Below, piece by piece: positions 20,074-39,305 of a stretch of DNA of 64,000 nt (positions are counted from its first letter, which is position 1; every line of letters starts with the position of its first letter). The position numbers were made by a program, and so were the translations under genes. Below the pieces are notes generated by a model. That model was not told the DNA's origin. It was given only the letters and a program-made list of their open reading frames with translations, and made no database searches. Source of the stretch: Pedobacter sp. N36a (lineage in GTDB: Bacteria > Bacteroidota > Bacteroidia > Sphingobacteriales > Sphingobacteriaceae); NCBI RefSeq assembly GCF_014472395.1, contig NZ_JACSZW010000008.1, forward strand, positions 1-64,000, in the 5' to 3' direction.

Positions 20074-23000
20074 CTATTCAATAGCAGCATCCTTATTCGC
20101 TTCAATATATTCAGATGGAGTTTTGGAAAATTGCTTCTTAAACTCCCTGCTGAAATACTTACGGTCTGCAAAACCGACCATATACCCCACTTCATATACG
20201 GTATATTTCTGCTGTAAAAGTAATTGAGCCGCCTTTTTCAGCCGGATAGACTTGGCAAAATCATTCACCGATAAATCCGTCAGCGCTTTCAGCTTTTTAT
20301 ATAGGACGGATTGGCTCATGCCAATTTTCTCGGCCATCAGGTCTACCCCAAAATCTTCATGCTCCATATGTGATTCAATAATTCCGATCAATCTGGATAA
20401 GAATCGCTCATCAATAGGATCTACTGCCGGCTCATTCGGCTCCAGCACCAGCGCCTTACTATATTTTTTACGCATGAGCTCCCTTGCCATTAAAAGGTTG
20501 CGCACTTGCAACTGTAAAATTTTAGGGCTAAAAGGTTTGCTCAGGTACAGGTCTGCTCCTTGGGTAAGTCCGCGGATTTGATCGGTTTGGCCGCTTTTAG
20601 CGGTCAATAAAACCACAGGGATATGATTAGTCCGTTCGTCAGTTTTTAACTGATGACAAAGCGTTAATCCGTCCATTTCAGGCATCATGACATCGCTGAC
20701 GATCAGGTCGGGGATTTCTTCAATTGCAGTTTCCCATCCCAACCTGCCATTTTCAGATAAGATCACGTTATAATCGGCTTCCAGTGATTCTTTAATTAGC
20801 TGACGCAGCTCTGGATTGTCCTCCACCACAAGGAGGGTTGCGCTCTTCTGCTGAGCCTGTTTAGGATCAGTCACAGAGAATGACCCTTCTGCAGGCTTAA
20901 TCGGAAGCCCAGTGTTGCTGCTTGCTGAAGGGCTGGGCTCCGGCACTGGAAGCTCCCATTGAGATTTTAACTGCTGTGTCTTGAAATGTCTGTGACCTAG
21001 TAATAGGGTGACATTAAAGCAGGTATTCCCAGCTTTCTTTTCTTCTCCAGGAACGCTGCTGACCTCAATATGGCCATAATGTAGTTCAATGATATGTTTT
21101 GATAAGGCCAGGCCAATTCCATATCCGGTATTCTGTATGCTATGGTCATCTACCTGGAAATAATTCTCAAAAAGCTGCTCCAGGTACTGGGCCGCTATTC
21201 CTCTGCCGGTATCTGTAATGCTGACATTTAGAGAATTTACATTCATCCTGATGTCGATGGCAATTCGACCGCTTTCGGGCGTGAATTTAAAGGCATTGGA
21301 AAGCAGGTTAAAAAAGACTTTTTCCAATTGTTCTTTATCAAAGTAAAGCAAGGGGATATCGTTGTCATAGCTGAGCCTAAAATCAATATTCTTTCTATTG
21401 GAGAATTCTTCAAAACTGTTAAAGATTTCTTTCATGAAAGCGATGAAGTCGTAGGAAGCCACTTTTAATTTTAGATTTTTAGTCTCTGCTTTTCTGAAAT
21501 CCATCAGTTCACTCACCAGTTTTAACAGGCGGTCTGCATTTTTCTTTACCTGGTTTAAACGTTGTTTCATTAATCCATCATGGTGCTGCCCTTCCTGGAG
21601 TTTCTCTATAGGCGCCATAATTAGGGTGAGGTGCGTACGGATTTCATGAGAAATATTTGTAAAGAAGTTGAGCTTGATCTGGTGCAGTTCTTCGTCTTTG
21701 AGTAATAAACCTCGCAGATAAAAGAATCGGGTAATAAAAAACAGCATGATGCCAAAGATGGTCAGGTAGCTGAGGTAAGCCCACCAGCTCTTCCAGAATG
21801 GTGGGAGAATTTTGATTCTCATGCTGACAGGGCTGCTCCAGATCCCATCATTATTAGCGCCTTTAACCCATAAAGTATACGTTCCAGAGGCTAGGTTGGT
21901 ATAAGTTGCTGTGGGATTATTACTTTCCACCCAACCTCCATTGACACCTTCCAGGCGATAGGCATACCTGTTTTTCTCGGATTTAATGTAATTCAACAAG
22001 GCAAACTCAATTGTAAATATATTTTTATAATAGGGGAAAATCAGTTGATCAGTAAAACTGATGTCGTGATGGAGGATTCCATCTGCCGAATTAATTTTTA
22101 CGGGCTCATTAAAAAGTTTTAAGGCAGTAAAGATCAAGGGTGCAGAATAATTGTTTCTTTCTATCTCTTTTGGAGAAAAATAACTCAGGCCATTAAAGCC
22201 ACCAAAATAAAGGTCCCCGTTTTTGGCCTTAAAAAAGGAATTGTAGTTGAATTCATCCCCTGCAAGACCATCACTTGTCGTATAAGTCAGGAAGATCTCT
22301 GATTTCGGATTAAACTTGGCTAAACCATTTGAAGTACTGATCCAAAGGAAATGAGCATCATCCTGCAGTATCCCTACCACATTGTTATTGGGCAGGCCAT
22401 GTTTTGTGGTATAGATTTTTACAAACTCTTTCTTTTTGTAATCGTACTTGCTGAGGCCCCCGTAATAAAGCCCTACCCAAATATTTCCCTGGTCATCTTC
22501 CTGAATGCAATTGATGTAGTTGGCATTATTGTTCACACTATTACTTCCATTTGGGAGGTTAAACGATTGTAGCTGCCGCTGATCTGCTGAGAGGAGGAAA
22601 AGACCTTTTGTAGTCGCTATCCAGATGTTTTGCTGCGTATCTTCGAATAATACCTTAATGTTGTTGTTCTTTATGCCTTGCAAGGCTGGGATTTCTGGAT
22701 AGGGTTTTAATAGAGCTCCTTTCTTTCTGAAAATACGGATGCCACTCTGACTGCCGGTCCAGAATACGCCATTGTGGTCTTCCAGGAGGGCCACCATTTC
22801 AGAGCGCGTGATTTTAGCATTATCTCCACTGATGAAGAAGCGTTGAAAGCTGCTGGTATGGTGGTCAAAACGATTTAAACCTCCACCATGTGTGCCTACC
22901 CAAATGTCACCAGTCTTATCTTTGTAAATCACTTTCACCAAATCTGAGCCCAGGCTTCTTGGATCTGAGGCTTTTAACTTATAAGTGCTGAACTGCTGTG

Positions 23001-24183
23001 TTCGCTGATCCAGATGGTTTAATCCGCCGCCTTCTGTTCCTATCCAGAGGTGATCATCTACATCCGCAATAATCGAGCTCACTACATTGTGACTGATGCC
23101 TTTCAATTTTTCATTGTACTGTATCGTCTTGAAATTAGTAGCATGTGCGTAGGCCACATTTACACCACCATAATAAGTACCAATCCATAGAGAACCGTTG
23201 ATATCTTCAAATATGCTGTAGATAGAATTTTGGTTTAAACTGCGGTCATGGGATTTGAGGTGCTGATAGGTTTTGAATTGTTTGCTCAGTGGATCCAATA
23301 TACTCAGTCCTTCCTGTGTCCCAATAGCTAGTTTTCCATCCTTGTTTTTTGTCATTCGACGAACGGAATTATGCACTAAACTATTTTTATTGCCCTCCTC
23401 ATGTACAAATCTGCTAAAGGTATTTGTGCTGGGGTGGAAAAGATTAATTCCAGCACTTTCCGTGGCTACCCATAAATTATGCTGGTTGTCTTCTGCAATG
23501 GCCGTAACGGAATTATCGCTCAGGCTATTTTCCTGACGATCCATATGACTGAAATTCGCCAGTTCTTTGATTTTACCATTAAAGATCAGCTTGCTGAGTC
23601 CGTAATTAGTACCTAACCATAAGTAGCCTTGCTGATCTTCATAAATACTAAGTACCTCTGCATTGGCAATACCATTTTTAAGGCCTAGTTGATGAGCAGG
23701 GGTAAAGGTGTTTTTTTTCCGGTCTGTCAATAAGTAAAGCCCTGTCCTGGCTGCAATCCAAAGGTTCCCTTTTCGGTCTTCATAAATTTCGTTGACTGGT
23801 GCATACCGCTTGTTATACTTGTTGCCATTTAAATAGATGCGTTCAAAAGTGTTTTTTTTCGGATTGAAGCGGTTTAAGCCATTTGCTGTGCCTACCCAAA
23901 GCACATTTTTTCTGTCGCTCCGCAAAGCGGTAATGTAATCGTCTGAAAGGGTAGTGCTGTCATTCGCGTTGCTTTTGTACAATTGAAACTGATGGCCATC
24001 ATATCGGTTGAGTCCAAACCTGGATCCAAACCACATGAAGCCGCGGCCATCCTGAGTAATGGCGAATATAGAGTTTTGCGACAGCCCGTTCTCTGTCTTC
24101 AAGTGATTGAAATTTAACTCCTGCCCATTGCTGTATAGCTGTATGAGCAGGAGGAGTGTGCTAATAATAGTCTGCTTTATCAT
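20074..24183 (-). CDS. Hybrid two-component system sensor/response regulator (HTCS)
   Basis: A single 1369-residue protein joins a whole signalling chain. After a signal peptide (residues 1-20), about 14 two-component-regulator propeller blades extend to about 660 (repeats of the type GDIWVGTHGGGLNRF). A Y_Y_Y domain follows at about 700-765 and a membrane span at about 787-806. Next are a HisKA domain with His846 in SHEIRTHLTLI, a HATPase (DTGRGIA, GYGIGLALSKHI), a receiver domain with Asp1164 in SDVMMPEMDG, and a C-terminal AraC-type helix-turn-helix (about 1265-1365). The periplasmic sensor would bind a released oligosaccharide and activate the divergent PUL at 24413-39305. The H-box has His where Pro is common (RTPL). 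Confidence 0.96.
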   Translation of the reverse strand: MIKQTIISTLLLLIQLYSNGQELNFNHLKTENGLSQNSIFAITQDGRGFMWFGSRFGLNRYDGHQFQLYKSNANDSTTLSDDYITALRSDRKNVLWVGTANGLNRFNPKKNTFERIYLNGNKYNKRYAPVNEIYEDRKGNLWIAARTGLYLLTDRKKNTFTPAHQLGLKNGIANAEVLSIYEDQQGYLWLGTNYGLSKLIFNGKIKELANFSHMDRQENSLSDNSVTAIAEDNQHNLWVATESAGINLFHPSTNTFSRFVHEEGNKNSLVHNSVRRMTKNKDGKLAIGTQEGLSILDPLSKQFKTYQHLKSHDRSLNQNSIYSIFEDINGSLWIGTYYGGVNVAYAHATNFKTIQYNEKLKGISHNVVSSIIADVDDHLWIGTEGGGLNHLDQRTQQFSTYKLKASDPRSLGSDLVKVIYKDKTGDIWVGTHGGGLNRFDHHTSSFQRFFISGDNAKITRSEMVALLEDHNGVFWTGSQSGIRIFRKKGALLKPYPEIPALQGIKNNNIKVLFEDTQQNIWIATTKGLFLLSADQRQLQSFNLPNGSNSVNNNANYINCIQEDDQGNIWVGLYYGGLSKYDYKKKEFVKIYTTKHGLPNNNVVGILQDDAHFLWISTSNGLAKFNPKSEIFLTYTTSDGLAGDEFNYNSFFKAKNGDLYFGGFNGLSYFSPKEIERNNYSAPLIFTALKLFNEPVKINSADGILHHDISFTDQLIFPYYKNIFTIEFALLNYIKSEKNRYAYRLEGVNGGWVESNNPTATYTNLASGTYTLWVKGANNDGIWSSPVSMRIKILPPFWKSWWAYLSYLTIFGIMLFFITRFFYLRGLLLKDEELHQIKLNFFTNISHEIRTHLTLIMAPIEKLQEGQHHDGLMKQRLNQVKKNADRLLKLVSELMDFRKAETKNLKLKVASYDFIAFMKEIFNSFEEFSNRKNIDFRLSYDNDIPLLYFDKEQLEKVFFNLLSNAFKFTPESGRIAIDIRMNVNSLNVSITDTGRGIAAQYLEQLFENYFQVDDHSIQNTGYGIGLALSKHIIELHYGHIEVSSVPGEEKKAGNTCFNVTLLLGHRHFKTQQLKSQWELPVPEPSPSASSNTGLPIKPAEGSFSVTDPKQAQQKSATLLVVEDNPELRQLIKESLEADYNVILSENGRLGWETAIEEIPDLIVSDVMMPEMDGLTLCHQLKTDERTNHIPVVLLTAKSGQTDQIRGLTQGADLYLSKPFSPKILQLQVRNLLMARELMRKKYSKALVLEPNEPAVDPIDERFLSRLIGIIESHMEHEDFGVDLMAEKIGMSQSVLYKKLKALTDLSVNDFAKSIRLKKAAQLLLQQKYTVYEVGYMVGFADRKYFSREFKKQFSKTPSEYIEANKDAAIE

Positions 24184-24412
24184 ACCCCCATAATAAATCT
24201 GTTTCAGTAAAATTTTATCCCTGTTAAAATTACAAATTCAACTGAGATTAAGGTGGTCCTTAGTGCTTTATTGCCCAACTCAGGTAAGTAAAATGAATTT
24301 TCACCCCATAAACAACCGTTTTTCACCCCTATGTTTTTTGAATTGGCTACAACTTTACGAGAAACCAAATAGCTGTTGTCTCCCAGGCAACAAACAAACC
24401 AAAAAACCAATT

Positions 24413-27400
24413 ATGATGAAACCTTACTTAAAAGTAAAGGGTATGAATGGATGTGGCAAGTCTCTTTTTAAGTGGCTGATGATACTCCTGTTTTTCCCAC
24501 TTTCTTTAGCTGCTCAAAAAAATAAGGGCATTAAAGGAACCAATAGCTCTGCTGAAACCCCTGGATTGCTGAAGGGTAAAATCACCAGCATTTATGGCGA
24601 GCCACTGTTCGGCGTATCCGTAAAGAATAAGACCGCTGGAACGGATGTGATTTCAAGTAAGAATGGTGATTATGCACTTCTGATTGATTCAGGAGAGGTG
24701 ATTGTCTTTTCTTTAAAAGGATATCTTGTTCATGAACAAGTGGTAACCGGGAATAAATTGAACATGGTATTGACGGAAGCCGAAAAACCACAAACGGTTG
24801 TTCAGCGACTATATGATACTCAGAAAAAGTCGACCAGCATCTTATCCACTGAAAGTGTGTATACTAAAGACCTGCTTAGTTCTCCTGTTACCGCACTAAA
24901 CAATGCATTATCAGGAAGACTTTCTGGCTTATCAACCCTTCAATCTACTGGAATTCCAGGATTGGATGCTGCGGGATATTCGTTACGGGGACAGGATCCA
25001 ACGATACTTGTAAATGGAATTCCCAGAGATCTGATTTCCATTGATTTTGAGCAAATAGAATCGGTAACTGTACTTAAAGATGCCTTAGCGACGGGTATGC
25101 TGGGACTGAGGGGTTCAGGCGGTGCCATTCTGATCACCACTAAACAAGGAGAGGTCGGTAAACAGAAAATCTCCTTTACTGCTCAAACGGGGTTACAAAG
25201 CCCGGTTAAGCTGCCTAAAACATTAGATGCCTATCACTATGCCAATTTATATAATGAAGCTTTGTTGAATGATGGCAAGGCTCCTGTATATTCATCAGCT
25301 GATTTGGAAGCCTATAGAACAGGATCTGATCCGATGGGACACCCTAATGTAGATTGGTATAAAGAAATATTAAGGAACAATGCTCCATTTACACGTTATA
25401 ACCTGAACACTTCTGGTGGTGGCAATAATGCCAGGTATTTCCTGGATGTTGATTACCTGGATCAGCAGGGTTTGCTAAAAACTTCCAATAAGAACAGTTA
25501 CAATACAAACGCTGATTTTAAAAGATACATCGTACGTACCAATATTGATGTGGACCTAACAAAGAACCTGACGGTTAATTTAAACCTGTTTGGGCGTATC
25601 GAAAATGGAAATTCACCGGGGGCGAGAAATGTAATCTCCTTCAATGGACGTGAAGTGAACCTGGGCGTAAATAGTATTTTCAATTCCCTTGCCAGTACCC
25701 CTAATGGTGCTTATCCGATGCTGAATCCAGATGGTTCTTTAGGAGGAAATAAGGACTTTCAGAATAATATTTATGGACAGAGCACACAATCCGGTTACAC
25801 GCTAAGCTATGGCAGGGAGATGTCGGCAGATGTTTCATTTAAGCGAACACTGGATGATGTGACTAAGGGACTATGGTTAAAAGGGCTGGTTTCTTTTAAT
25901 ACCAATCTTTCGGAAGTGACCTCCAGAGGTAAAACATTCGCAGTTTATCAAGGTCAAAATGCCCCATCTGGTGTAACTTACCAGCGTTTTGGTACGGATG
26001 GAACGATTGTAGCCGGTACCAGCTTGAATACTTACCAGTATAAAAACTTCTATTCAGCGCTTTCAGCAGGATACGATAGAACCATTGGGAACCATCATGT
26101 GAAAGCACTGGCAAATGCCAATATTCAGAACATATCTGTCTATAGCGACCTGCCTTTAACGTATCAAACGCTTGCTGGATCCGTTGCTTACGATTACAAG
26201 GAAAAATATCTTGCCGAGGTGGTTATGAGTTATAGCGGTTTAAATCGTTATCCCGACAATAAACGATTCGGTCTTTTTCCTACTGCTGGTCTAGGCTGGA
26301 ATATTGCTAAAGAAAGCTTTATCGCTGATCATGTAAAATGGTTAAATACCTTAAAACTTCGTGCTTCTTATGGCCGCACAGGTAATGCAAATGCAGGATA
26401 CTTTGTATACAACCAATATTTTGCAGATGGTGACGGTTATTATTTTGGCGGTGGTTCAGGAACGTTTGTATATTCCGTTAGGGAGCAAACCCTGGCCAAT
26501 CCAAAAATTACCTGGGAAAAAGCAAATAAGCTGAATCTGGGTTTAGACCTGAGCTTGTTTAATGATCAGCTGACGTTAACGACCGAATATTACCGCAATA
26601 AATACTTTGACTTGCTGCAGGTGAGAGGAAAAAACACGGCGATTATCGGAAATACTTATCCACTCGAGAATATTGGAACCACCAATTATACCGGGCTGGA
26701 TTTTACGGCGAGTTACCGCAATCACCTCAACAACTTCAATTATTTTGTTTCTGGAAATCTAACCGCAAACAACCAAATCATCAAATATCAGGACGAAGTA
26801 TTTCGTGAGTATGATTGGATGAAACGTACCGGACAGCGTACAGACCAGGTTTATGGTTATCAGGCAGATGGCTTTTACCAGAATGCAGCGGATATAGCAA
26901 ACAGTCCAAAGACAGAGGGCTATAATCCGGTTCCCGGCGATATTAAGTACAAAGACCTGAATGGCGATGGCGTGATCAACCAATTCGATATAGAAGGTCT
27001 AAAAAATAATAAGGCGATTATTTATTATGGATTCTCTCTGGGCTTTGACTTTAAGGGCTTTGACTTCAGTGCGCTTCTGCAGGGAGCCGCAAACCGGATG
27101 ATCTATCTATCGGGCCCTACACAATGGGAATTCCAGAATGATGGAAAAGGACAGGCATTTGAGCATCATCTGGATCGCTGGACTCCTGAGACGGCTGCCA
27201 CCGCTACTTATCCAAGACTTGCAGTAGGCCGTAATCCAAACAACCAGGCGATGTCTTCCTTCTGGCTGCGTTCAGGAAATTACATGAGGTTGAAAAATAT
27301 GGAAATCGGGTATACCCTTCCACAAAGATTTGCGGCCAGAATTAAACTGGCTTCCGTAAGATTTTTTGCCAATGGCATGAACCTGTTTACCATTTCGGAC

Positions 27401-27484
27401 AACAAGGATATCGATCCTGAGGTTTATGGTACGGCATATCCTGCCCTCAGAACGATCAATGCCGGTATTAACATTAAACTATAA
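24413..27484 (+). CDS. SusC/RagA-family TonB-linked outer membrane protein (PUL pair 1)
   Basis: From ATG 24413 the protein has 1023 residues. The signal peptide (LFKWLMILLFFPLSLAAQ) fits this start; upstream in-frame codons from 24263 give no signal sequence at the N-terminus. After a degenerate carboxypeptidase-D-like domain (about 50-115, LKGKITSIYGEPLFGVSVKN) comes the plug (VLKDALATGMLGLRGSGGAIL) and the barrel, closing with RTINAGINIKL. There is no STN domain, consistent with control by the divergent HTCS rather than by sigma/anti-sigma signalling. A calcium-like DLNGDGVINQFD loop lies near residue 830. Pairs with the SusD-like gene starting five bases downstream. Confidence 0.94.
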   Translation: MMKPYLKVKGMNGCGKSLFKWLMILLFFPLSLAAQKNKGIKGTNSSAETPGLLKGKITSIYGEPLFGVSVKNKTAGTDVISSKNGDYALLIDSGEVIVFSLKGYLVHEQVVTGNKLNMVLTEAEKPQTVVQRLYDTQKKSTSILSTESVYTKDLLSSPVTALNNALSGRLSGLSTLQSTGIPGLDAAGYSLRGQDPTILVNGIPRDLISIDFEQIESVTVLKDALATGMLGLRGSGGAILITTKQGEVGKQKISFTAQTGLQSPVKLPKTLDAYHYANLYNEALLNDGKAPVYSSADLEAYRTGSDPMGHPNVDWYKEILRNNAPFTRYNLNTSGGGNNARYFLDVDYLDQQGLLKTSNKNSYNTNADFKRYIVRTNIDVDLTKNLTVNLNLFGRIENGNSPGARNVISFNGREVNLGVNSIFNSLASTPNGAYPMLNPDGSLGGNKDFQNNIYGQSTQSGYTLSYGREMSADVSFKRTLDDVTKGLWLKGLVSFNTNLSEVTSRGKTFAVYQGQNAPSGVTYQRFGTDGTIVAGTSLNTYQYKNFYSALSAGYDRTIGNHHVKALANANIQNISVYSDLPLTYQTLAGSVAYDYKEKYLAEVVMSYSGLNRYPDNKRFGLFPTAGLGWNIAKESFIADHVKWLNTLKLRASYGRTGNANAGYFVYNQYFADGDGYYFGGGSGTFVYSVREQTLANPKITWEKANKLNLGLDLSLFNDQLTLTTEYYRNKYFDLLQVRGKNTAIIGNTYPLENIGTTNYTGLDFTASYRNHLNNFNYFVSGNLTANNQIIKYQDEVFREYDWMKRTGQRTDQVYGYQADGFYQNAADIANSPKTEGYNPVPGDIKYKDLNGDGVINQFDIEGLKNNKAIIYYGFSLGFDFKGFDFSALLQGAANRMIYLSGPTQWEFQNDGKGQAFEHHLDRWTPETAATATYPRLAVGRNPNNQAMSSFWLRSGNYMRLKNMEIGYTLPQRFAARIKLASVRFFANGMNLFTISDNKDIDPEVYGTAYPALRTINAGINIKL

Positions 27485-29186: not shown

Positions 29187-32100
29187 ATGCAAAGATTTAT
29201 ATATATCACACTTGCAATGGTTTTTTTCCTGCCAGGGCTCCTTTTGGCACAAACCAAAGTGATCAAAGGCTTGGTAAAGGAAAGCGGAGGGCCGCTTCCA
29301 GGAGCTACCGTTGTGGAGAAAGGGGTAGCTGGAAATGGCACCCAAACTGACAATGATGGCCGCTTTCAGCTGACTTTAAAAGGCAGTAGTCAGACCATTT
29401 TGATCAAGAGCATTGGTTTTATCAGCCAGGAAATAAACGTATCCAATAAGAAAGAAGTTACAGTAGCCCTTGCAGTAGATGCGAAAGGACTGGAAGAACT
29501 CATCGTTGTAGGTTACGGCAAACAAAAGAAGATCACCAATACCGGTGCAGTAAGTTCTATTAATGGGGCAGAAATCAGACAAAATCCTACCGCAAGTGTC
29601 CAGAATACGCTTGCCGGACGTTTACCTGGTTTCTTTTCTCAGCAAAGATCTGGACAGCCGGGAAAAGATGGAGCAGATTTCTTTATTCGCGGGATGAGCA
29701 GCTATGCAGGTACTCAGCGCCCATTGATTATTGTGGATGATATTGAATACAGCTATTCAGATGTTTCACAACTGGATCCTAATGAGATTGAAAGTATTTC
29801 TATTTTGAAAGATGCATCTACCACGGCTATTTACGGGGTAAAAGGAGCAAACGGGGTGATGGTGATTACCACTAGAAGAGGGATCTCTGGCGCACCAGTG
29901 ATCAATTTTAAAACGGAGCTGGGCTTACAGCAAAAAACCTTTACACCTAAGTTCTTGGGTTCTTATGATGCAGCAATATTGACCAATCAGGCCTTGCGCA
30001 ACAGTGATCAGTCTTTGCGTTTTACGGATAAAGATATTCAGCTTTTTAAAGATGGTACTGACCCTTATGGGCACCCGGATGTAGATTGGTATAGTACTTT
30101 GATGAATCCTACCGCGTTGATCTCCAGAAATAACCTGGACATCTCGGGTGGTACGGAAAGCGTAAAATATTTTGTCTCGATGGGCTACTTATGGCAGAAT
30201 GGTGCTTTAAAAGATTTCAGCTCTAAAAGTGAAGTAAACAATACCCATTACTACAAACGTTATAATTTCCGTTCCAACCTAGACGTACAAGCTACTAAAA
30301 CGCTGAGCTTTAAGCTGGATATGACAGGTCGTTTTGGAGAAACAAATGATCCTATTACCAATAGCCCTAATGGGAATGGTCTGATTGGCGAGATCTATAG
30401 TTATAACTTTTTACCGCCATTTGCTTATGCAGTATATAATCCAGATGGCAGTTACGCGACCGGTTCAAACCTGGGAGGCGTCAATATCGTGGGTCGTCTG
30501 GCCACACAAGGGTACAACAGAAGTTTCGATAACGATTTAAACATCACCTTTGGTGGGGTTCAGAAATTGGATATGCTGACTCAGGGATTGTCAGCGAAAG
30601 CTTTAATTTCTTACGCAAGTGCTCAGGTCAACAAAAGAGGTCTGGCAAGAAGCAATACCAATTTCCCAATGTATTACTACAATCAGGAAACGGGTGTGTA
30701 TACGCCAAAAGATGCTACGGTATATCGGATTCCACCATACAACCTGACACGTTCTGCTGGCGGAGCTTCCAGAACTACCAATGTTCAGGCTTCCTTAAAT
30801 TATGATCGCAATTTCGGGGACCATAGGATATATGCGCTCGGACTATATAATCAAAACAGTTACATTCAGAACGACAACGCCGTAACCGATTCCAGCATTC
30901 CAGCCAATTTTAGAGGAATGACGATGAGAACTGGTTATGATTACAAACAAAAGTATTTATTGGAGTTTAATGCCGCTTATAATGGAACGGATAAGTTTGT
31001 AGGAAAGAAACGCTATGGATGGTTCCCGGCTATTTCCGGAGGATGGAACATTGCGGAAGAGTCATTCTTTAAGAAGAAGGTTTCCTTTGTCAACTTGTTT
31101 AAAATCCGTGGTTCTTATGGTCTAGTGGGTTCAGATAATATTGGTGATGGTAAGTTTGTCTATGAGCAGGTGTATACCAACGACGGCTCTTATTCATTCG
31201 GGCAGCAGCACAACAATTACGCTGGCATCAAAGAAGGTACGTTAGGAAATGATAATGTGACCTGGGAAAAAGAAAATAAACTGGATATCGGTTTAGACGT
31301 TTCCATGTTCGAGGGAAAACTTTCCTTTACCGTGGATTATTTCAATAACAACAGGTATGATATTTTGACGCCTAGAGCAAGTGTGCCCTTGATTATGGGG
31401 GTTGGATTACCGCCGATGAACCTGGGTAAAGTGAATAACAAAGGATGGGATGGAGAGATCAATTACAGGAATAGCTTTAAAGGCGTGCAATACTTTGCCA
31501 GAGGAACTTTCTCTTATGCGAAAAATAAGATTATTTTCAAAGATGAAGCCAATCCTCGCTACCCTTGGTTAGCAAGAACAGGACAGCCAATCGGACAAGG
31601 GTTCGGTTATATCTTTGATGGCTATTACCAAAGTCTGGAAGACATTGCCAATAGCCCTAAGCCAACCACAAGCATCAAACCAGGGGATTTAAAATACAAA
31701 GACCTGAATGGGGATGGAATTATTGACGCATTGGATCAGCGTGCCGTGGGTAGTCCGAATTTACCAAGTACCACTTTAGGATTAACCTTAGGCTTTACTT
31801 ACAAAGGGATTAGCTTCAGTATGTTACTTCAAGGGGCTTATGATTATAGCATGTACTTTGCTTCAGAAGCGATTGAAGGACTAAGCACTAATTTTCAACC
31901 GATTCACCAGCAAGCATGGACACCAGAACTGGGTAATAATGCAAAGTTTCCACTGTTAGGTACCAATAGCACGATCAGCCGCCCTAACGTATCTCTTTCA
32001 GACTTTTGGTTAGTAGATGCGCGTTACCTGCGTTTAAAAACTATGGAAATTGGCTATCAGCTGCCAACATCATGGGTGAAACCAATTGGCTTTAAAGGAA

Positions 32101-32270
32101 TCAGGGTATACACCAATGGCTATAACCTGTTAACCTGGACTAACGTGGATAAATTCTATCAGGCAGATCCAGAATCGGTGAATGCTTCTGGTGGAATTAT
32201 CAATACCGGAGCGATTACCGCTTACCCAAATCAACGCATCTATAATTTCGGTGTTACTTTCTCATTATAA
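29187..32270 (+). CDS. SusC/RagA-family TonB-linked outer membrane protein (PUL pair 2)
   Basis: A 1027-residue TonB-dependent transporter with signal peptide (residues 1-21, FFLPGLLLAQ). The carboxypeptidase-D-like domain (about 25-100) contains GPLPGATVVEKG. The TonB-box-like/plug region reads LEELIVVGYGKQKKITNTGA, with SISILKDASTTAIYGVKGAN later; it ends in a barrel with RIYNFGVTFSL. No STN domain. It resembles the first PUL SusC in architecture (including a DLNGDGIIDALD loop) but differs in sequence, so the pairs are paralogous rather than a recent duplication. Start is 36 bases after the preceding SusD stop, so the genes are likely in one transcript. Confidence 0.95.
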   Translation: MQRFIYITLAMVFFLPGLLLAQTKVIKGLVKESGGPLPGATVVEKGVAGNGTQTDNDGRFQLTLKGSSQTILIKSIGFISQEINVSNKKEVTVALAVDAKGLEELIVVGYGKQKKITNTGAVSSINGAEIRQNPTASVQNTLAGRLPGFFSQQRSGQPGKDGADFFIRGMSSYAGTQRPLIIVDDIEYSYSDVSQLDPNEIESISILKDASTTAIYGVKGANGVMVITTRRGISGAPVINFKTELGLQQKTFTPKFLGSYDAAILTNQALRNSDQSLRFTDKDIQLFKDGTDPYGHPDVDWYSTLMNPTALISRNNLDISGGTESVKYFVSMGYLWQNGALKDFSSKSEVNNTHYYKRYNFRSNLDVQATKTLSFKLDMTGRFGETNDPITNSPNGNGLIGEIYSYNFLPPFAYAVYNPDGSYATGSNLGGVNIVGRLATQGYNRSFDNDLNITFGGVQKLDMLTQGLSAKALISYASAQVNKRGLARSNTNFPMYYYNQETGVYTPKDATVYRIPPYNLTRSAGGASRTTNVQASLNYDRNFGDHRIYALGLYNQNSYIQNDNAVTDSSIPANFRGMTMRTGYDYKQKYLLEFNAAYNGTDKFVGKKRYGWFPAISGGWNIAEESFFKKKVSFVNLFKIRGSYGLVGSDNIGDGKFVYEQVYTNDGSYSFGQQHNNYAGIKEGTLGNDNVTWEKENKLDIGLDVSMFEGKLSFTVDYFNNNRYDILTPRASVPLIMGVGLPPMNLGKVNNKGWDGEINYRNSFKGVQYFARGTFSYAKNKIIFKDEANPRYPWLARTGQPIGQGFGYIFDGYYQSLEDIANSPKPTTSIKPGDLKYKDLNGDGIIDALDQRAVGSPNLPSTTLGLTLGFTYKGISFSMLLQGAYDYSMYFASEAIEGLSTNFQPIHQQAWTPELGNNAKFPLLGTNSTISRPNVSLSDFWLVDARYLRLKTMEIGYQLPTSWVKPIGFKGIRVYTNGYNLLTWTNVDKFYQADPESVNASGGIINTGAITAYPNQRIYNFGVTFSL

Positions 32271-32288: not shown

Positions 32289-34031
32289 ATGAAGATAAAA
32301 TTTATACACCTGGTGATGGCAGTATTTCTGCTGATGGCAGGGGCTTGTAAAAAAGGAGGCTTCCTTGATGCAAAACTGGCCAGCGACCTAAATGAAACCA
32401 CAACTTTTACAGATAGTGTACGTACCATTGCTTTTTTAACCAGACTCTATACGAATGTCGGATTTAACTTTGATGCCAATAGGTGGGAAGGTGGCGGACA
32501 CCCGGTACTGGCAGATGAAGCGATCCCGGTTCGCTATACAGGACCACAAAATGATGCCATTCTAATGGCCAGTGGTGCACTTTCGGCCTCCAGTACCAAC
32601 GTTACAAAACAAGCTGAAGTACTCAATAACTGGAAATTGCCTTGGGAGAATATCCGTAGGGCAAATGTATTCCTTAGCAATATAGACCGCAGTCCCCTGA
32701 GTGCCGGTTTAAAGAAAAAACTGAAAGCCGAAACCCGTTTCCTACGCGCCTGGTATTATTTCCAGCTGGTAAAAGTATATGGAGGTGTGCCTTTGATCGG
32801 TGATGTGAATTATGGAATTGCAGATAATATTGATTTGCCGCGTTCCAGTTACAGCGACTGTGTAGATTATATCGTGAACGAATGTAATGCAGCTGCCGCA
32901 GATTTGCCAGACTTCGATACGCAGCTGCAGCAAGATTATGGTCGCGCTACAAAAGGTGCCTGTATGGGGCTTAAATCAAGAATGTTATTGTACGCAGCAA
33001 GTCCATTATTTAATGGGGAAGGAATTGCAGCAGATGCGGCACTGAAAAGTATCACCGGCTATGCAAATGCAGATTTGGAACGCTGGAATAAAGCAGCACA
33101 GGCCGCTAAAGACATCATCAATTCTGGTACATATTCCTTAAGAGAAGACAATGTTACCCGTCGGGGATATGGTTTTTACAGTGTGTTTTTGAACCGTTAC
33201 AATAGAGAATATTTGTTCGGAGGAATGAAAGCACCTAATAGAGAATATGAAAATAACTTGCTGCCAACTTCCAGAACAGGGAGTGGAAGATCAAGTGCAC
33301 CAACGCAACAACTGGTAGATGCTTTTGGAATGGAAAATGGCTTGCCAATTACGGACCCTGCTTCCGGATACAATCCTAACGATCCTTATCTGAAACGCGA
33401 CCCTCGCTTCGGAAATAGTATCATTTACAATGGCTCCACATTTTTCCTGACGAGTAGTAATGCCATGGTAGCGGTAAATACATTTGTAGGCGCTAGTCCC
33501 GATGGGCCGGCTGCAACAGGGCCAATCGCTATTCCAGGATATTACTGGAGAAAGATGATGGTAGAAGACGGTGGTGGTAATACCGACCGCTGTTATCCAT
33601 TGATCAGGTACGCAGAAATTTTGTTGAATTATGCGGAAGCATTGAATGAATACCAGGGACCAACCACTGAAGTTTACAGCACCTTAATCCAAATTAGAAA
33701 ACGTGCAGGGATCTTACCAGGTTTAGACGATAATTATGGCCTGAAATCAGGCATCAGTAAAGCAGATATGCGTTTGGTGATTCAAAATGAACGCAGAGTA
33801 GAGCTGGCCTTGGAAGAACACCGCCTTTGGGATGTGAGGAGATGGAAAATTGCAGAGGTGACCAATAATGTCATGTTAAAAGGAATGAAAATTACTAAAA
33901 CAGGAAATAAGCTGACTTATGAAGTGATCGATATTAAACCACATTTTTTCAGACCTGCATTTTATCTATTTCCGATTCCAGAATCAGAAATGGCCAAATC
34001 GCCAAAGTTTGTACAAAACCCAGGCTGGTAA
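32289..34031 (+). CDS. SusD/RagB-family lipoprotein (PUL pair 2)
   Basis: A 580-residue lipoprotein (lipobox LMAGAC, Cys20). Family features are TRFLRAWYYFQLVKVYGGVP near residue 150, DYGRATKGACMGLKSRMLLYA near 215, and VIQNERRVELALEEHRLWDV near 500, ending in KSPKFVQNPGW. It starts 18 bases after the SusC stop. A terminator ten bases downstream separates it from the following enzyme genes, giving more transporter than enzyme transcript. Confidence 0.94.
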   Translation: MKIKFIHLVMAVFLLMAGACKKGGFLDAKLASDLNETTTFTDSVRTIAFLTRLYTNVGFNFDANRWEGGGHPVLADEAIPVRYTGPQNDAILMASGALSASSTNVTKQAEVLNNWKLPWENIRRANVFLSNIDRSPLSAGLKKKLKAETRFLRAWYYFQLVKVYGGVPLIGDVNYGIADNIDLPRSSYSDCVDYIVNECNAAAADLPDFDTQLQQDYGRATKGACMGLKSRMLLYAASPLFNGEGIAADAALKSITGYANADLERWNKAAQAAKDIINSGTYSLREDNVTRRGYGFYSVFLNRYNREYLFGGMKAPNREYENNLLPTSRTGSGRSSAPTQQLVDAFGMENGLPITDPASGYNPNDPYLKRDPRFGNSIIYNGSTFFLTSSNAMVAVNTFVGASPDGPAATGPIAIPGYYWRKMMVEDGGGNTDRCYPLIRYAEILLNYAEALNEYQGPTTEVYSTLIQIRKRAGILPGLDDNYGLKSGISKADMRLVIQNERRVELALEEHRLWDVRRWKIAEVTNNVMLKGMKITKTGNKLTYEVIDIKPHFFRPAFYLFPIPESEMAKSPKFVQNPGW

Positions 34032-34071: not shown

Positions 34072-34134
34072 GTACTTTAACGGCAATAAATTTAATTTTA
34101 AATCAACAGATCGACGGTCTGTAATACCAAGTAG

Positions 34135-35586
34135 ATGATGAGAGAAAAGTTCCTGTTTTGTTGTTTGATCGCTTTGAGTTTGTTGGCTGGATTTTCCTCC
34201 GGTACGAAAGCTCAGGAGCTGATCAATAGGAGTAAATATTATGTGGATAGCCAGAATGGCAATGATGACTATTCCGGAAAGTCACAAAAATTAGCCTGGA
34301 GATCATTGAGCAAGGTAAACGCGCAAACCTTTACTCCTGGTGATCAGGTTCTTTTCAAGCGTGGTGGCAAATGGAAAGGGCAATTGATGCCTCAGGGCTC
34401 CGGAACAAAGAAAAGTCCAATTATTTTTACCGCTTATGGAAAAGGTGAGCTTCCGGTTATCGCTGCGGAAGGTCAGTTTAAAGATGCGGTATTGCTAAAG
34501 AATATCAGCAATATCGCTTTGGAGAATTTGGACCTTTCTAATTTTGATGCTTTAGTCAAAACGCAGAAAACAGGCCCTACTGGGGTCCGTATTCTTGCAG
34601 AAAACATCGGGACGATCAGTAATATCCGCCTTTCTAATCTTTATGTACACGACATTAATGGCGACAATAAAAAAGGAAGTAACGAAGGAAACGGAATTTT
34701 CTGGGATTGTCAGGGGCCAAAACCAAGTAATATTGAAAACCTGCTGATCGAAAATTGTAGAGTGGTCAAAGTGGACAGGAATGGAATTCGGGGCAATGGA
34801 ACTTTTGCCTTCCGTAACCATTGGTTTCCCAATAAAAATTTAATCATCCGAGGTTGTACCCTGGAAGATATTGGCGGAGATGGGATTGTGGTCAAAGCAT
34901 TTGATGGTTCTTTAATAGAGCATAATAAGCTGTTTCACATCAGAACCCGTGCTAAAGACAATGCAGTAGGTATCTGGCCACATAGCAGCGACAATACCAT
35001 CATTCAATACAATGAGGTCGCTTTTACAAAAAATCTGGATTGGTCTAATGACGGACAATCATTTGATATCGATGGGAATTGCAACAACACCATCATTCAG
35101 AACAATTATAGCCATGACAATGATGGCGGGTTTATGCTGGTGATTTCGGATGCGATTAATGCAAAAAGTAAAATGACTACTAACAGCATCATCAGGAATA
35201 ACCTAAGTATAAATGATGGCAATAAACGCAAGCGCCTGTTCAATTTTGCTTTAGTCACAGACGATACCCAAATCAGTAATAATATTTTTTACAACAGTGG
35301 ATTGGATGCTGTGAAAATGGAATTGATAGACATCGAACATGGCGTACCTAAAAACGTAGTGCTGGATGGTAATATCTTCGAATATCGAGGATTAGCCACA
35401 GGCATTTTTACCAAATCTGCAAAACAATACGCCGCATTAACCTGGATGGGAAACGTGTTCAAGGGGAATATCGCCGGAAAAGATCAACTACTAAATGTTA
35501 AACAAGAGCCTGTAATAAAGAAAAAGAATTTGAAAGAATTTCCTTGGAGTTTCATTAAGGCATTGAAACTTGAGAAATTGCTCTAA
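34135..35586 (+). CDS. Right-handed parallel beta-helix protein (lyase-like), secreted
   Basis: A 483-residue protein with a signal peptide (hydrophobic 6-20, cleavage near GTKAQ). The body shows repeated beta-helix coils: IIRGCTLEDIGGDGIVVKAF, LIEHNKLFHI, TIIQYNEVAF and TIIQNNYSHDNDGGFMLV. Such folds are used by polysaccharide lyases and some glycosidases (pectate-lyase-like). The N-terminal YYVDSQNGNDDYSG motif is common to these secreted helices. Catalytic residues cannot be identified by eye, and I cannot name the CAZy family. The locus suggests action on the same glycan as the SusC/SusD pairs. Confidence 0.8.
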   Translation: MMREKFLFCCLIALSLLAGFSSGTKAQELINRSKYYVDSQNGNDDYSGKSQKLAWRSLSKVNAQTFTPGDQVLFKRGGKWKGQLMPQGSGTKKSPIIFTAYGKGELPVIAAEGQFKDAVLLKNISNIALENLDLSNFDALVKTQKTGPTGVRILAENIGTISNIRLSNLYVHDINGDNKKGSNEGNGIFWDCQGPKPSNIENLLIENCRVVKVDRNGIRGNGTFAFRNHWFPNKNLIIRGCTLEDIGGDGIVVKAFDGSLIEHNKLFHIRTRAKDNAVGIWPHSSDNTIIQYNEVAFTKNLDWSNDGQSFDIDGNCNNTIIQNNYSHDNDGGFMLVISDAINAKSKMTTNSIIRNNLSINDGNKRKRLFNFALVTDDTQISNNIFYNSGLDAVKMELIDIEHGVPKNVVLDGNIFEYRGLATGIFTKSAKQYAALTWMGNVFKGNIAGKDQLLNVKQEPVIKKKNLKEFPWSFIKALKLEKLL

Positions 35587-35650
35587 TTTATTATATTTAA
35601 ACTATATGTGAATATTTAAATAATCAAACAATCATCCCTAAACCAAATTT

Positions 35651-37234
35651 ATGAGAACCAAAACTTTAGCACTTTGCCTATTACTGGCAACTAGCCTCTT
35701 TGCGTGCAAAAAATCTCCAGTTGCAGCAGACGTAACTGCCTTAGAACTGAGCACCGACACGGTGTACACCAGTCCGCAGTCGCGCAATTTGAACCTGGTT
35801 TATTTTGTGCCCAACGACCTTGATACGCTTCCTGCGTACGAAAAGCGTTTAAGTGAGCTGATGTTATGGACACAAAATTACGTGAAACAGGAAATGCTGC
35901 GTAACGGATATCCAAACAAAACCTTTGGAATGTTTGCCGATCTGAGCATTAACAGGGTGAAAATCATCACCATCAGAGGTACAAAACCAAAGAGTGATTA
36001 TTCCTATTCCAGCGGTGCTGGAAATGTACAGGCAGAGATTAACGCCTATTTTACCGCACATCCCACAGAGAAAACCAGTGACCATACGCTGGTGATCTTA
36101 CCGAGATATAGTTTCCGCCCGGATGGAACACCTGATGGCGGGCCCTTTTTTGGTTTGGGAAGATGGTGCTTCGCATTAGATTATGAAGGATTAGACATCA
36201 AAAATCTTGGAAAAACTGATACTGAAGGCAATCGTTTCAGTGTTTGGTTCGGCGGATTGGTACATGAGCTGGGCCATGGATTAAACCTTCCACACAATTG
36301 TCAGAAAGTTTCCGAAAATGCGACGCTTGGTATGGCCTTAATGTGGGCAGGAAATGGAACGCTAGGTAAATCTAACACCTTCCTGACTGCTACAGATTGT
36401 GCCATTTTAAATGTCAACCAGATTTTTAACAACGACAGCAAGACTTATTACGGAGCCCTGAATGCCCGGGTAACCAGAATTCATGCAGATTACTCTGCCA
36501 CAAAATCAGCAATTGTACTTTCCGGTAGATTTACAAGTGATACGAAGGTCAATAGCATCGTTTATTACAATGACCCGAATGTAAACAATGAAGGGGTAGG
36601 TGCAAACAAAGATTATAATGCAGTAACCTGGGAATCTAAGGCGATTGGAACAGACAGCTTTTATGTGGAAATGCCTATCGCTGATTTTAAATATAAAGAT
36701 GCTAGTCCTTATGAGCTGCGTTTAAAGCTAGTCCACGACAATGGAACAGTAACACAGAATAGCTATGCTTATAAATTTGTGAATGCGCTGCCGGTTCTGG
36801 AATTCAGTACAAAAAATGAAATCAGCAAAGCAGGCTGGTCTATCGCTGCCTTCAGCTCCCAGCAAACTACTGCTGTTGCCGCAAATGTGATCGACAATAA
36901 TTTGTCAACCGGATGGCATAGCCAGTGGTCTGTTGCGCCGGCTGCAAGTTATCCGCATTTTATTACGATAGATCTTGGACAGCTTAAAACGCTGGATGGC
37001 TTTACTATTTTAAACGGCGACAGACGTGCGATTAAAGATGTGGATATTTTATACAGTACTGACGGTATCAACTTCAGCCTGGCCTCCACTTTACAAATCC
37101 CTAAACTAGGGTCCATTCAAAATTTTGCTTTTCAAGCACCATTGAGTTTCAGATATTTTAAAGTCCTGGCGAAATCAAGCTGGGATGGCGAACAATTCGC
37201 ACAATTTGCCGAGTTAGGCTTCTATAAAAATTAA
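35651..37234 (+). CDS. Lipoprotein metzincin-like metallopeptidase with F5/8-type C domain
   Basis: A 527-residue protein with a lipoprotein signal peptide (lipobox LFAC, Cys19 approximately). The catalytic motif HELGHGLNLPH starts at His205 and fits HExxHxxGxxH-like zinc peptidases (His205, Glu206, His209, His215), that is, the metzincin pattern. The C-terminal part (about 395-527) resembles a discoidin/F5-8C domain, with VIDNNLSTGWHSQW and the closing FAQFAELGFY. This would attach to sugars. The combination implies binding a glycan while cutting a protein, as in glycoprotein-degrading PULs. I cannot assign a MEROPS family. Confidence 0.82.
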   Translation: MRTKTLALCLLLATSLFACKKSPVAADVTALELSTDTVYTSPQSRNLNLVYFVPNDLDTLPAYEKRLSELMLWTQNYVKQEMLRNGYPNKTFGMFADLSINRVKIITIRGTKPKSDYSYSSGAGNVQAEINAYFTAHPTEKTSDHTLVILPRYSFRPDGTPDGGPFFGLGRWCFALDYEGLDIKNLGKTDTEGNRFSVWFGGLVHELGHGLNLPHNCQKVSENATLGMALMWAGNGTLGKSNTFLTATDCAILNVNQIFNNDSKTYYGALNARVTRIHADYSATKSAIVLSGRFTSDTKVNSIVYYNDPNVNNEGVGANKDYNAVTWESKAIGTDSFYVEMPIADFKYKDASPYELRLKLVHDNGTVTQNSYAYKFVNALPVLEFSTKNEISKAGWSIAAFSSQQTTAVAANVIDNNLSTGWHSQWSVAPAASYPHFITIDLGQLKTLDGFTILNGDRRAIKDVDILYSTDGINFSLASTLQIPKLGSIQNFAFQAPLSFRYFKVLAKSSWDGEQFAQFAELGFYKN

Positions 37235-37238
37235 CATA

Positions 37239-39305
37239 ATGTATCGACAAAAAATTATTGCCACGATCCTTTTCTTTCTATTTCAACTGGCTGTAACGAC
37301 AGCAAAACCTGTTACTAATGCATTAAATGGGAGGGAAACCATTCCATTTAATGCCAATTGGCAATTTTATTTTGCATATAACTTTGAACAAGGCATCAAA
37401 AAGGAAACGGTCAACCTGCCGCATACCTGGAATGCCAATGAGGTATTGGAGGGAGTAGCGGAATACAAACGCAGTGCAGCGATTTATGAGAATAGCCTGA
37501 ATGTTCTAAAAGAATGGGGCGCTAAAAGATTATTCCTTTATTTCGAAGGGGCCAATAGTGTGGCCACGGTATTTGTAAACAACAAAGCGGTTGCGGAGCA
37601 TAAGGGTGGTTATACTGGATTTGCAGTAGAAATCACCGACTATGTGAAGCCGGGGAATAACTCCATCGCCGTTCAGGTCAGCAATGCTTACCGTTTGGAC
37701 GTGATTCCGTTACATGGCGATTTCAATATTTATGGTGGCTTGCACCGTCCGGTTTCTTTGATTCTGACAGAAAAGAATTGTATCAGTCCCTTGGATTATG
37801 GCTCTTCAGGCGTGTACCTGACGCAAAAGGCCGTTTCTGAAAATTCCGCAGATCTGGAAATCCTGACAAAGTTATCTTTGTCCGATGCTAAAAACTTAAG
37901 CCTTAAAACAACCCTTTTTGACCAGACTGGAAAAGAAATACGTTCCATTACTCATCCTGTAAATACGGGAGCAGGTGCTGGAAGAACCACTCAAATTAAG
38001 ACACAAATGCGCATTCAAAGTCCACATTTGTGGAATGGTAAAGCCGATCCTTATTTGTATAGTGTAGCCGTAGATCTACTTGAGGATGGAAAAGTAACCG
38101 ATCATATCTCTCAGCCTCTGGGTTTCCGGTATTATAGCGTAGACCCAGATAAAGGCTTTTTTCTGAATGGGAAGTACCTGGATTTATATGGTGCAGGAAG
38201 ACATGAAGATTGGTCGGGGAAAGGTTCTGCCTTAACAGATGCAGATCATGATCAGGATATGGAGCTGATGAAGGAAATGGGGGCAACGGCTGCAAGGTTA
38301 ACCCATTATCCCCACAGCAAGCATTTCTATGATTTATGTGATCAGAATGGGATGGTATTATGGTCGGAGATTCCATTTGTGGGCCCAGGAGGGTACACTG
38401 GAACTGGCTATGTGAAAGATCCGCAGCTGGAAGAAAATACAAAGAAGATGCTGAAAGAATTGATCCGTCAGAATTACAATCATCCTTCGGTATGCTTTTG
38501 GGGCTTATTCAATGAGTTAAAACTTAATTACGACGATCCACAGCCCTTTATTAAAGAACTGAATGAATTGGCGAAAGCCGAAGATCCGGGGAGATTAACC
38601 ACATTGGCCTCTAACTTAGGTCCGGCTAATTTTACCGATCTGACTGACCTGATGGGCTGGAACCAGTATTTCGGCTGGTATGGGGGAAGCTTTGATCAGG
38701 TAGCCAAATGGGCAGATCAAACGCATCAAGCCTTGCCCGGTAAACCGATTTCTATCTCTGAATATGGTGCCGGGGCAAGTCCTTTTAAGCATATCGAAGA
38801 ATTGACCGCGCCAGAAGCAAAAGGGCGCTTCCATCCGGAAGAATGGCAAACGGCATTCCATGAAAAACATTGGGAAGAACTGAAGAAACGTCCTTATATC
38901 TGGGGTAAATTTATCTGGGTACTGGCAGATTTTGGTTCTGGAATCAGAACAGAAGGCGACAACAATGGCATCAATGATAAAGGGCTGGTGACTTACGATC
39001 GCAAGATTAAAAAGGATGCTTTCTATTTTTATAAAGCAAACTGGAACCCAGAGCCGATGGTTTACATTACCTCCAGAAGAAATACGATGCGTACCAAAGC
39101 TGTCACACCAGTGAAAATCTTTAGCAATTTACCAGATGCAGAACTTTGGATCAATGGAAAAAGCATGGGTAAGAAGAAGAAGAATGCGATGAATACGATG
39201 ATCTGGGAAAATGTGAAGCTGAATAAAGGGAAAAATGAGGTCCTGGTAAAAGGAAAATCTGCTGGAAGCACCTTAGCAGATACCTGTATTTGGGAACTTC
39301 AATAA
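37239..39305 (+). CDS. Glycoside hydrolase family 2 enzyme (beta-galactosidase-like)
   Basis: A 688-residue protein with signal peptide (residues 1-23, FFLFQLAVTTA). The GH2 domains are in order: an N-terminal sugar-binding jelly roll (about 35-185; WNANEVLEGVAEYKRSA), an immunoglobulin-like domain (about 200-310), and the TIM barrel (about 315-600). The catalytic acid/base would be Glu426 in WGLFNELKLN and the nucleophile Glu508 in SISEYGAG. A C-terminal DUF4982-like domain follows (about 620-688, LWINGKSMGKKKKN). The start lies four bases after the protease stop, so the genes are co-transcribed. Exact sugar specificity (galactose, mannose or glucuronate) cannot be read. Confidence 0.92.
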   Translation: MYRQKIIATILFFLFQLAVTTAKPVTNALNGRETIPFNANWQFYFAYNFEQGIKKETVNLPHTWNANEVLEGVAEYKRSAAIYENSLNVLKEWGAKRLFLYFEGANSVATVFVNNKAVAEHKGGYTGFAVEITDYVKPGNNSIAVQVSNAYRLDVIPLHGDFNIYGGLHRPVSLILTEKNCISPLDYGSSGVYLTQKAVSENSADLEILTKLSLSDAKNLSLKTTLFDQTGKEIRSITHPVNTGAGAGRTTQIKTQMRIQSPHLWNGKADPYLYSVAVDLLEDGKVTDHISQPLGFRYYSVDPDKGFFLNGKYLDLYGAGRHEDWSGKGSALTDADHDQDMELMKEMGATAARLTHYPHSKHFYDLCDQNGMVLWSEIPFVGPGGYTGTGYVKDPQLEENTKKMLKELIRQNYNHPSVCFWGLFNELKLNYDDPQPFIKELNELAKAEDPGRLTTLASNLGPANFTDLTDLMGWNQYFGWYGGSFDQVAKWADQTHQALPGKPISISEYGAGASPFKHIEELTAPEAKGRFHPEEWQTAFHEKHWEELKKRPYIWGKFIWVLADFGSGIRTEGDNNGINDKGLVTYDRKIKKDAFYFYKANWNPEPMVYITSRRNTMRTKAVTPVKIFSNLPDAELWINGKSMGKKKKNAMNTMIWENVKLNKGKNEVLVKGKSAGSTLADTCIWELQ

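Follow-up and report, generated by a model that had tools for sequence, protein, structure and literature searches.

The window analysed here is the whole stretch of 64,000 nucleotides from Pedobacter sp. N36a (contig NZ_JACSZW010000008.1), and it contains a polysaccharide utilization locus (PUL) at 20074–39305. The PUL encodes a hybrid two-component system regulator (HTCS), two SusC/SusD pairs, a beta-helix protein, a peptidase and an enzyme of glycoside hydrolase family 2 (GH2). We propose, at a rough probability of 0.4, that this HTCS-controlled PUL strips short uronic-acid-capped glycans from animal-type O-glycoproteins, and the likeliest target would be an O-glycoprotein capped with glucuronic acid (GlcA). 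Across Pedobacter, the HTCS, beta-helix and GH2 genes are the conserved core, and the peptidase and the transporters are exchangeable modules. The peptidase is predicted to be an O-glycopeptidase of the OgpA type, and the GH2 enzyme is a predicted beta-glucuronidase. The genes are as follows.

20074–24183, minus strand: HTCS hybrid two-component regulator, divergent from the operon (Pfam domains); core gene
24413–27484, plus strand: SusC1 TonB-dependent transporter (TIGR04056, 749 bits)
27489–29150, plus strand: SusD1 lipoprotein (SusD_RagB, E 4e-58)
29187–32270, plus strand: SusC2 TonB-dependent transporter (TIGR04056, 895 bits)
32289–34031, plus strand: SusD2 lipoprotein (SusD_RagB, E 7e-54)
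34135–35586, plus strand: right-handed beta-helix protein, GH136-like predicted glycosidase (phmmer, 6kqs); core gene
35651–37234, plus strand: predicted OgpA-type metzincin O-glycopeptidase, lipoprotein with a C-terminal F5/8-type (CBM32-like) domain (phmmer, 6z2o); accessory gene
37239–39305, plus strand: GH2 enzyme, predicted mini-loop-1 beta-glucuronidase (matches to 3cmg, 5z1a and 8dhe); core gene

All eight genes are present in this order. The initial annotation had described a PUL in which a divergent HTCS controls two different SusC/SusD pairs, a beta-helix protein, a GH2 enzyme and a metzincin-like lipoprotein peptidase that has a discoidin-like domain, and each of these gene assignments was confirmed. 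Adjacent SusC/SusD pairs, glycan-active enzymes and a regulator are found together, as in the definition of a SusC/D-type PUL. According to Pfam, the HTCS is composed of ten Reg_prop stretches followed by Y_Y_Y, HisKA, HATPase_c, Response_reg and HTH_18 domains. Both SusC proteins exceed the TIGR04056 cut-off (368 bits), and the two pairs are distinct, with 35% identity between SusC1 and SusC2 and 39% between SusD1 and SusD2. The second-best solved-structure match of SusD2 is 7bll (E 2e-42), which is BT3013; the PUL of BT3013 also encodes an M60-like peptidase (PMC11992087). Two open reading frames (ORFs) as listed look over-long: SusC1, listed from a GTG at 24263, shows a signal-peptide-like start at 24413, and SusD1, listed from 27426, shows one at 27489.

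A census of 145 Pedobacter genomes was performed, with E 1e-120 or better as the threshold for beta-helix orthologues. The beta-helix gene was detected in 23 genomes, with 60–91% identity outside the window's own. In 20 of these 23, the window's genome included, the HTCS, beta-helix and GH2 genes are located in one locus, and the HTCS orthologues are 55–94% identical. In the other three (G626, G631, G129) the HTCS and GH2 were not found beside the beta-helix gene; the contig of G631 stops about 0.3 kb past it. The peptidase is present in only 11 of the 20 core loci (the window, G627, G614, G651, G633, G667, G581, G662, G029, G588 and G582). In all 11 copies the peptidase lies between the beta-helix and GH2 genes, and His205, Glu206, His209, His215, Met231, Tyr119, Phe166, Trp199 and Asn235 are retained (11/11). 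G614, G651, G633, G667, G029, G581 and G582 were taken as equal to the loci L021, L022, L023, L024, L025, L026 and L027, and the two sets were not added; G029 and G216 have the same coordinates.

The initial annotation had also proposed that the protease makes the target accessible to the transporter. A single obligate system of this kind is not supported: relatives with SusC/SusD and GH2 and without the peptidase exist, a case in which, according to the initial annotation, the joint role would fail. In G597 (locus L191), a 55-codon peptidase remnant with 69% identity, a deletion stump, is located between the beta-helix and GH2 genes, and the remaining seven proteins are 77–88% identical to those of the window. 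G597 and G576 contain the same two Sus pairs with the beta-helix and GH2 genes. G596 contains two more distant Sus pairs (46–52% identity), located between the beta-helix and GH2 genes, and G668, G600 (SusC in two frames) and G014 each contain one other Sus pair beside the two enzyme genes; none of these six loci has the peptidase. Over the 20 core loci, two Sus pairs are present in 12 (G596 among them), a single different pair in five (G581, G662, G668, G600, G014) and no pair downstream of the HTCS in three (G022, G640, G017); a distantly related pair is located on the opposite side of the HTCS in G022. The peptidase and the transporters as an inseparable module were ruled out on two sides: a single, different Sus pair accompanies the peptidase in P. 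caeni (G581, L026) and G662, and two Sus pairs occur in G597, G576 and G596, where the peptidase is absent. In G017 (L145, G017:C18, about 9803–10267), a SusC start fused to a SusD end, a deletion scar, was observed in the gap between the GH2 and beta-helix genes. G596 has four transporter genes, and the two ends of the fusion correspond to the outermost of these, its first SusC and its last SusD.

A peptidase tree of 36 rows was built with eight of the 11 PUL peptidases (L031, L055 and L057 were excluded beforehand). The eight form one clade, with a Shimodaira–Hasegawa-like approximate likelihood-ratio test (SH-aLRT) value of 97. The simplest reading of the peptidase history is a single acquisition followed by repeated losses, and transfer between species is possible. 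G002 was part of the first comparison, gave no beta-helix match and is outside the 23 genomes. Its locus (L146, G002:C7:38000–57500) is a decayed version, with the HTCS and the SusC each in two frames and the GH2 intact, and a GH16 gene stands at the place of the beta-helix gene.

The peptidase belongs with OgpA of Akkermansia muciniphila and with Amuc_1438, and glycan-dependent cleavage is predicted for it from this likeness. In a phmmer search against the PDB, OgpA (6z2o) was matched with E 2e-67 across residues 28–374, and Amuc_1438 (8dek) with E 1e-12. An AlphaFold model made from 23 sequences has a predicted local distance difference test (pLDDT) value of 79. OgpA ranked first for this model in Foldseek (6z2d, E 3e-31, template modelling score on the target 0.86), with 33–34% identity over 348–366 columns of the structural match. 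The HExxH-type motif reported at residue 205 is the zinc motif HELGHGLNLPH (HExxHxxNxxH), and the identical string, HELGHGLNLPHN, is found in OgpA. The zinc ligands His205, His209 and His215, the catalytic Glu206 and the Met-turn Met231 are also identical to those of OgpA. All 66 aligned rows, which include some copies of one gene, keep these residues intact; the active site is thus conserved, whereas the initial annotation had named a lack of such conservation as refuting the joint role.

OgpA recognises GalNAc-linked O-glycans (GalNAc, N-acetylgalactosamine), galactose (Gal) linked to GalNAc being the best, and six residues hold Gal-GalNAc: Tyr116, Phe166, Lys198, Trp199, Asn235 and Tyr236 (PMC7518263). 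Four of the six are kept in the window peptidase, namely the Gal-platform Tyr116 (here Tyr119), Phe166, Trp199 and Asn235. OgpA cuts N-terminal to glycosylated Ser/Thr (PMC7518263), and Amuc_1438 is an O-glycopeptidase with the same cleavage side (PMC9513282). The window peptidase differs from OgpA in being a lipoprotein, in carrying an extra CBM32-like domain and in its location in a PUL. This C-terminal domain is F5_F8_type_C (Pfam, E 1e-16, residues 398–522), which corresponds to the discoidin-like domain of the initial annotation. All 23 aligned relatives have the lipobox Cys19, and the residues after the lipobox (CKKS) are the same as in SusD1, which hints that the peptidase is exported to the cell surface. 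The best named match is from P. polysacchareus (98%). An M60-type enzyme was ruled out by the metzincin-type HExxHxxxxxH motif and by the match to OgpA in sequence and structure, and a weak Pfam match to Metallopep PF12044 (20.8 bits, cut-off 27) was set aside.

The GH2 enzyme is predicted to be a beta-glucuronidase of the mini-loop-1 type. Its TIM-barrel domain was detected by Pfam with E 6e-38, and the PDB entries 3cmg, 5z1a and 8dhe were all matched with E < 1e-210. In the alignment with 3cmg, 316 of 633 residues are identical (50%). The score for NF050095 (beta-glucuronidase LacZ4) is 901 bits, under the curated cut-off of 950. The catalytic Glu residues of the initial annotation were confirmed as Glu426 and Glu508, and an NxK motif (Asn579-Asp-Lys581) is located in loop 8; this motif marks GH2 beta-hexuronidases (PMC12243196). 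All 20 orthologues have Glu426, Glu508, Asn579, Lys581 and Gly582. The loop-8 Arg opens the RTEGD motif, one position away from residue 571, which is Thr or Ile among the orthologues. 8dhe is TfGUS mL1 of T. forsythia, a mini-loop-1 beta-glucuronidase that takes GlcA off GlcA-GalNAc and (sulfated) chondroitin oligosaccharides, and 3cmg is treated as BfGUS (PMC10162664). The window enzyme shares with both the NxK motif and the FVGPGGY mini-loop, whereas it is encoded in a PUL with an O-glycopeptidase. The residue numbers printed for BfGUS in PMC10162664 misfit the aligned 3cmg chain, and the comparison with BfGUS was made by motifs. 5z1a and 3cmg are named putative beta-galactosidase in the PDB; this name was set aside for the window enzyme on the NxK motif and the treatment of 3cmg as BfGUS.

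The beta-helix protein has 483 residues, fewer than the GH136 lacto-N-biosidases, and a type I signal peptide, judged by eye. A Pfam search gave no match, and an NCBIfam match to the lacto-N-biosidase LnbX is sub-threshold (E 2e-20, 72 bits, cut-off 2500). Strong PDB matches are found only to GH136 lacto-N-biosidases (6kqs, E 1e-32 by phmmer and 6e-43 by profile), and the next family is alginate lyase (E 4.5e-5); the GH136 enzymes ErLnb136, LnbX, TnX and BsaX are the best matches by a wide margin. The AlphaFold model from eight sequences is poor (mean pLDDT 50); the Foldseek ranks obtained from it place GH136 best, in agreement with the sequence, and have little weight alone. In ErLnb136 the catalytic residues are Asp568 and Asp575, and Trp548 stacks on galactose (PMC7335108). 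Asp306 and Asp313 align with this catalytic pair when the chain index is taken two ahead of the published numbers, an offset that places both catalytic positions on Asp, and the GIWP segment is aligned as well. Both Asp residues occur in all 39 aligned rows, a few of which are copies, and in all 23 orthologues of the genus. The protein thus plausibly acts like a GH136 glycosidase, yet it misses two marks of GH136 membership, the GH136I partner and Trp548.

The beta-helix, peptidase and GH2 genes are consecutive in seven (L021–L027) of the 37 named loci with a peptidase relative. Neither the beta-helix nor the GH2 gene was seen in the other 30 within the sequence examined; L055 stops just past the peptidase. 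The peptidase is uncommon outside the genus, being detected in 18 of 161 family genomes (E 1e-10) and 3 of 395 class genomes (E 1e-20), own genome counted in both. OgpA homologues in Bacteroidetes have already been noted in Marinifilum, Odoribacter, Chitinophaga, Elizabethkingia, Chryseobacterium, Zhouia and Imtechella (PMC7518263). Neighbours of OgpA-like peptidases were annotated in a few loci picked for their PUL-like look: GH89 and GH35 in L048, two sulfatases and two GH20 in L049, and GH109 and a sulfatase in L051. In this selected sample, the context is that expected for enzymes of mucin-type glycoproteins. The one neighbour checked for each of L050, L053 and L054 is not a glycosidase. 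The own genome also encodes a further OgpA-like peptidase, a distant one with 37% identity along its full length (L150, C3:35000–54500, peptidase at 9466); it sits between SusC/SusD pairs, with a GH29, a sulfatase and a GH97 retaining alpha-galactosidase alongside. In Flavihumibacter sp. ZG627 (L047:6806–12805), a 1999-residue ORF is a sialidase-O-glycopeptidase fusion, composed of LamG domains, a BNR-type sialidase (about 497–958), an OgpA-type peptidase with an F5/8-type domain (1086–1593) and a Por secretion tail.

The conserved unit of sensor, beta-helix enzyme and glucuronidase points to a pathway acting on a glycan with GlcA at its end. The core must function without the peptidase, because nine of the 20 core loci lack it. 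The most fitting view of the peptidase is that of an accessory enzyme by which the same glycan can be obtained from protein that is still intact. The intact active site and the fixed slot of the peptidase suggest that the glycan is attached to an O-glycosylated protein in about half of the loci. We infer the activities, the substrate, the surface location and the order of the steps as follows. SusD1, SusD2 and the lipoprotein peptidase would engage the glycoprotein at the surface, with Gal or GalNAc as possible ligands of the CBM32-like domain. The peptidase would cut N-terminal to glycosylated Ser/Thr, and the resulting glycopeptides would be imported by the SusC/D pairs. Terminal GlcA would then be removed by the GH2 beta-glucuronidase, and the GH136-like enzyme would free a disaccharide from the trimmed chain. 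Finally, the HTCS would sense a product and switch on the operon.

For an environmental bacterium, the glycoprotein would most plausibly come from invertebrates (nematodes, insects). GlcA is present on core 1 and 'invertebrate core' O-glycans in Caenorhabditis elegans and on core 1 O-glycans in Drosophila, and insect sialylation is limited to a few tissues and stages (PMC6272458). These features would explain a glucuronidase in place of the sialidase for vertebrate mucin. A more specific form of the proposal is that the PUL is dedicated to glucuronylated invertebrate mucin-type O-glycans, with the glucuronidase uncapping them in the role of a sialidase, a GH136-derived beta-helix enzyme of new specificity, and a modular O-glycopeptidase. 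The peptidase would then be kept or lost depending on the supply of intact glycoprotein or loose glycan. Taken as a whole, this specific form is unlikely.

Several observations weigh against the proposed explanation. The peptidase is absent from G597, G668, G596, G600, G022, G576, G014, G640 and G017, so the core may act on something other than a glycoprotein. In the tree of the core genes (11 of the 20 genomes), the presence and absence of the peptidase takes three changes, no fewer than shuffled labels, and the peptidase is thus no more clustered than these. Most Pedobacter relatives of the peptidase (58–66%) are located outside any recognisable PUL. In the glycan pocket, the window peptidase has Gly in place of OgpA Tyr236, a residue that forms a wall of the GalNAc site, and Val in place of Lys198, a main-chain contact. 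Without Tyr236 the pocket would be more open on its GalNAc side, and the window peptidase may accept a glycan other than plain core 1. The beta-helix protein is the weakest step of the proposed pathway. The position of the galactose-stacking Trp548 is His283 in 23 of 23 genus orthologues, and a GH136I partner, which is needed for activity in characterised GH136 members (PMC7335108), is missing from the 483-residue protein and among the eight PUL genes, the part of the genome that was searched for it. The protein should not cut the alpha-GalNAc-Ser bond, because characterised GH136 enzymes cut beta-linked disaccharides. No alpha-GalNAcase or beta-galactosidase is present in the PUL. The Gal-GalNAc phosphorylase GH112 was found in 0 of 13, but also in 0 of 14 control genomes, and this result is uninformative. 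The uronate isomerase UxaC was present in all 12 genomes searched, as was GH109, with and without the peptidase, which gives no discrimination. UxaC (G000:C22, 287824–289212) and GH109 (309398–309943) are about 20 kb apart on one contig, and likewise in G212, G213, G214, G215 and G217.

In a rival explanation, the core targets a GlcA-bearing poly- or oligosaccharide made by plants, fungi or bacteria, and the peptidase is an independent passenger with another target that was inserted between the beta-helix and GH2 genes. The nine core loci without the peptidase, the varying transporter sets and the few peptidase loci (7/37) with the beta-helix and GH2 genes alongside favour such a passenger, but the single clade of the eight PUL peptidases tested (SH-aLRT 97), the constant slot and the intact active site in 11 of 11 argue against it, and we regard this explanation as rather doubtful. 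A chondroitin-bearing proteoglycan is a further rival to be taken seriously: the GH2 enzyme would trim terminal GlcA of chondroitin chains, and the O-glycopeptidase would open the mucin-like part of the core protein. TfGUS mL1 processed every chondroitin compound tested (PMC10162664), and PUL25 of B. caccae joins a chondroitin pathway with putative M60-like O-glycopeptidases, for which the authors suggest proteoglycans (PMC12269599). However, a polysaccharide lyase, GH88, sulfatase or hexosaminidase is lacking among the eight PUL genes, and this target is improbable.

The plant arabinogalactan protein given as an example target by the initial annotation is the least supported, and is very improbable. 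GlcA caps occur on plant arabinogalactan-protein glycans and Pedobacter includes soil and plant-associated species, both of which count for it. On the other side, mucin-type GalNAc is not known from plant proteins, and no arabinofuranosidase or other arabinogalactan enzyme is present among the eight PUL genes. Furthermore, the relationship to OgpA, which reads GalNAc-linked O-glycans, disfavours such a target (PMC7518263). The interpretation of the initial annotation is thus supported in part: the glycoprotein target and a peptidase with an intact active site are supported, and an obligate joint system with the transporter is not.

Among known systems, the mucin O-glycoprotein PUL BT4240-50 of B. 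thetaiotaomicron comes closest in its logic. Both PULs encode a surface O-glycopeptidase lipoprotein with CBM32, a GH2 enzyme and SusC/D, and peptidase and glycosidase modules or operons are joined differently between species (PMC11992087). BT4240-50 differs in its M60-like peptidase, in a GH2 that is a beta-1,3-galactosidase, in GH109 and a GalNAc kinase, and in having one Sus pair, and no glucuronidase is named in the available text of the article (PMC11992087; 0 occurrences of 'glucuron'). An M60-like peptidase, GH109 and GalNAc kinase, marks of such a mucin PUL, are not found among the eight window genes. B. caccae PUL25 likewise has a uronic-acid glycan pathway beside putative O-glycopeptidases, whereas it has its own PL35, GH88, GH109, glucuronate dehydratase and M60-like peptidases (PMC12269599). 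The statement of the initial annotation that PULs seldom encode proteases is thus too strong for glycoprotein PULs, as BT4240-50 (PMC11992087) and PUL25 (PMC12269599) do so. The combination of an OgpA-type metzincin, a GH136-like protein, a glucuronidase and two Sus pairs was not found in the open literature, most subscription journals being outside the search; nothing was found there on a Pedobacter O-glycan glycopeptidase or on LacZ4 as a glucuronidase.

The degradation of mucin-type O-glycoproteins has been studied mostly in gut bacteria. Predicted OgpA-type O-glycopeptidases are now placed in PULs of Pedobacter and other Bacteroidota beyond the usual gut genera. The enzyme paired with the peptidase here is a predicted beta-glucuronidase and not a sialidase, as would suit invertebrate O-glycans. 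The peptidase is present in 11 of the 20 core loci and missing from 9, one of them with a stump, and this natural series allows the contribution of an O-glycopeptidase to a glycan pathway to be studied directly. Such new O-glycoproteases and glucuronidases would be useful tools for glycoproteomics.

The Bacteroidota promoter pattern gave four matches in the window against 2.8 expected, and none of them lies inside the PUL. On the other side of the HTCS, a SusC/SusD pair of a different type at 13438–18419 (SusD-like_2 type, with an STN domain on the SusC) is followed by a ferritin gene at 19308, and this pair is taken as not belonging to the PUL. To the right of the GH2 gene, which ends at 39305, genes for a FemAB-like protein, thymidine kinase, FtsW/RodA and a penicillin-binding transpeptidase are located.

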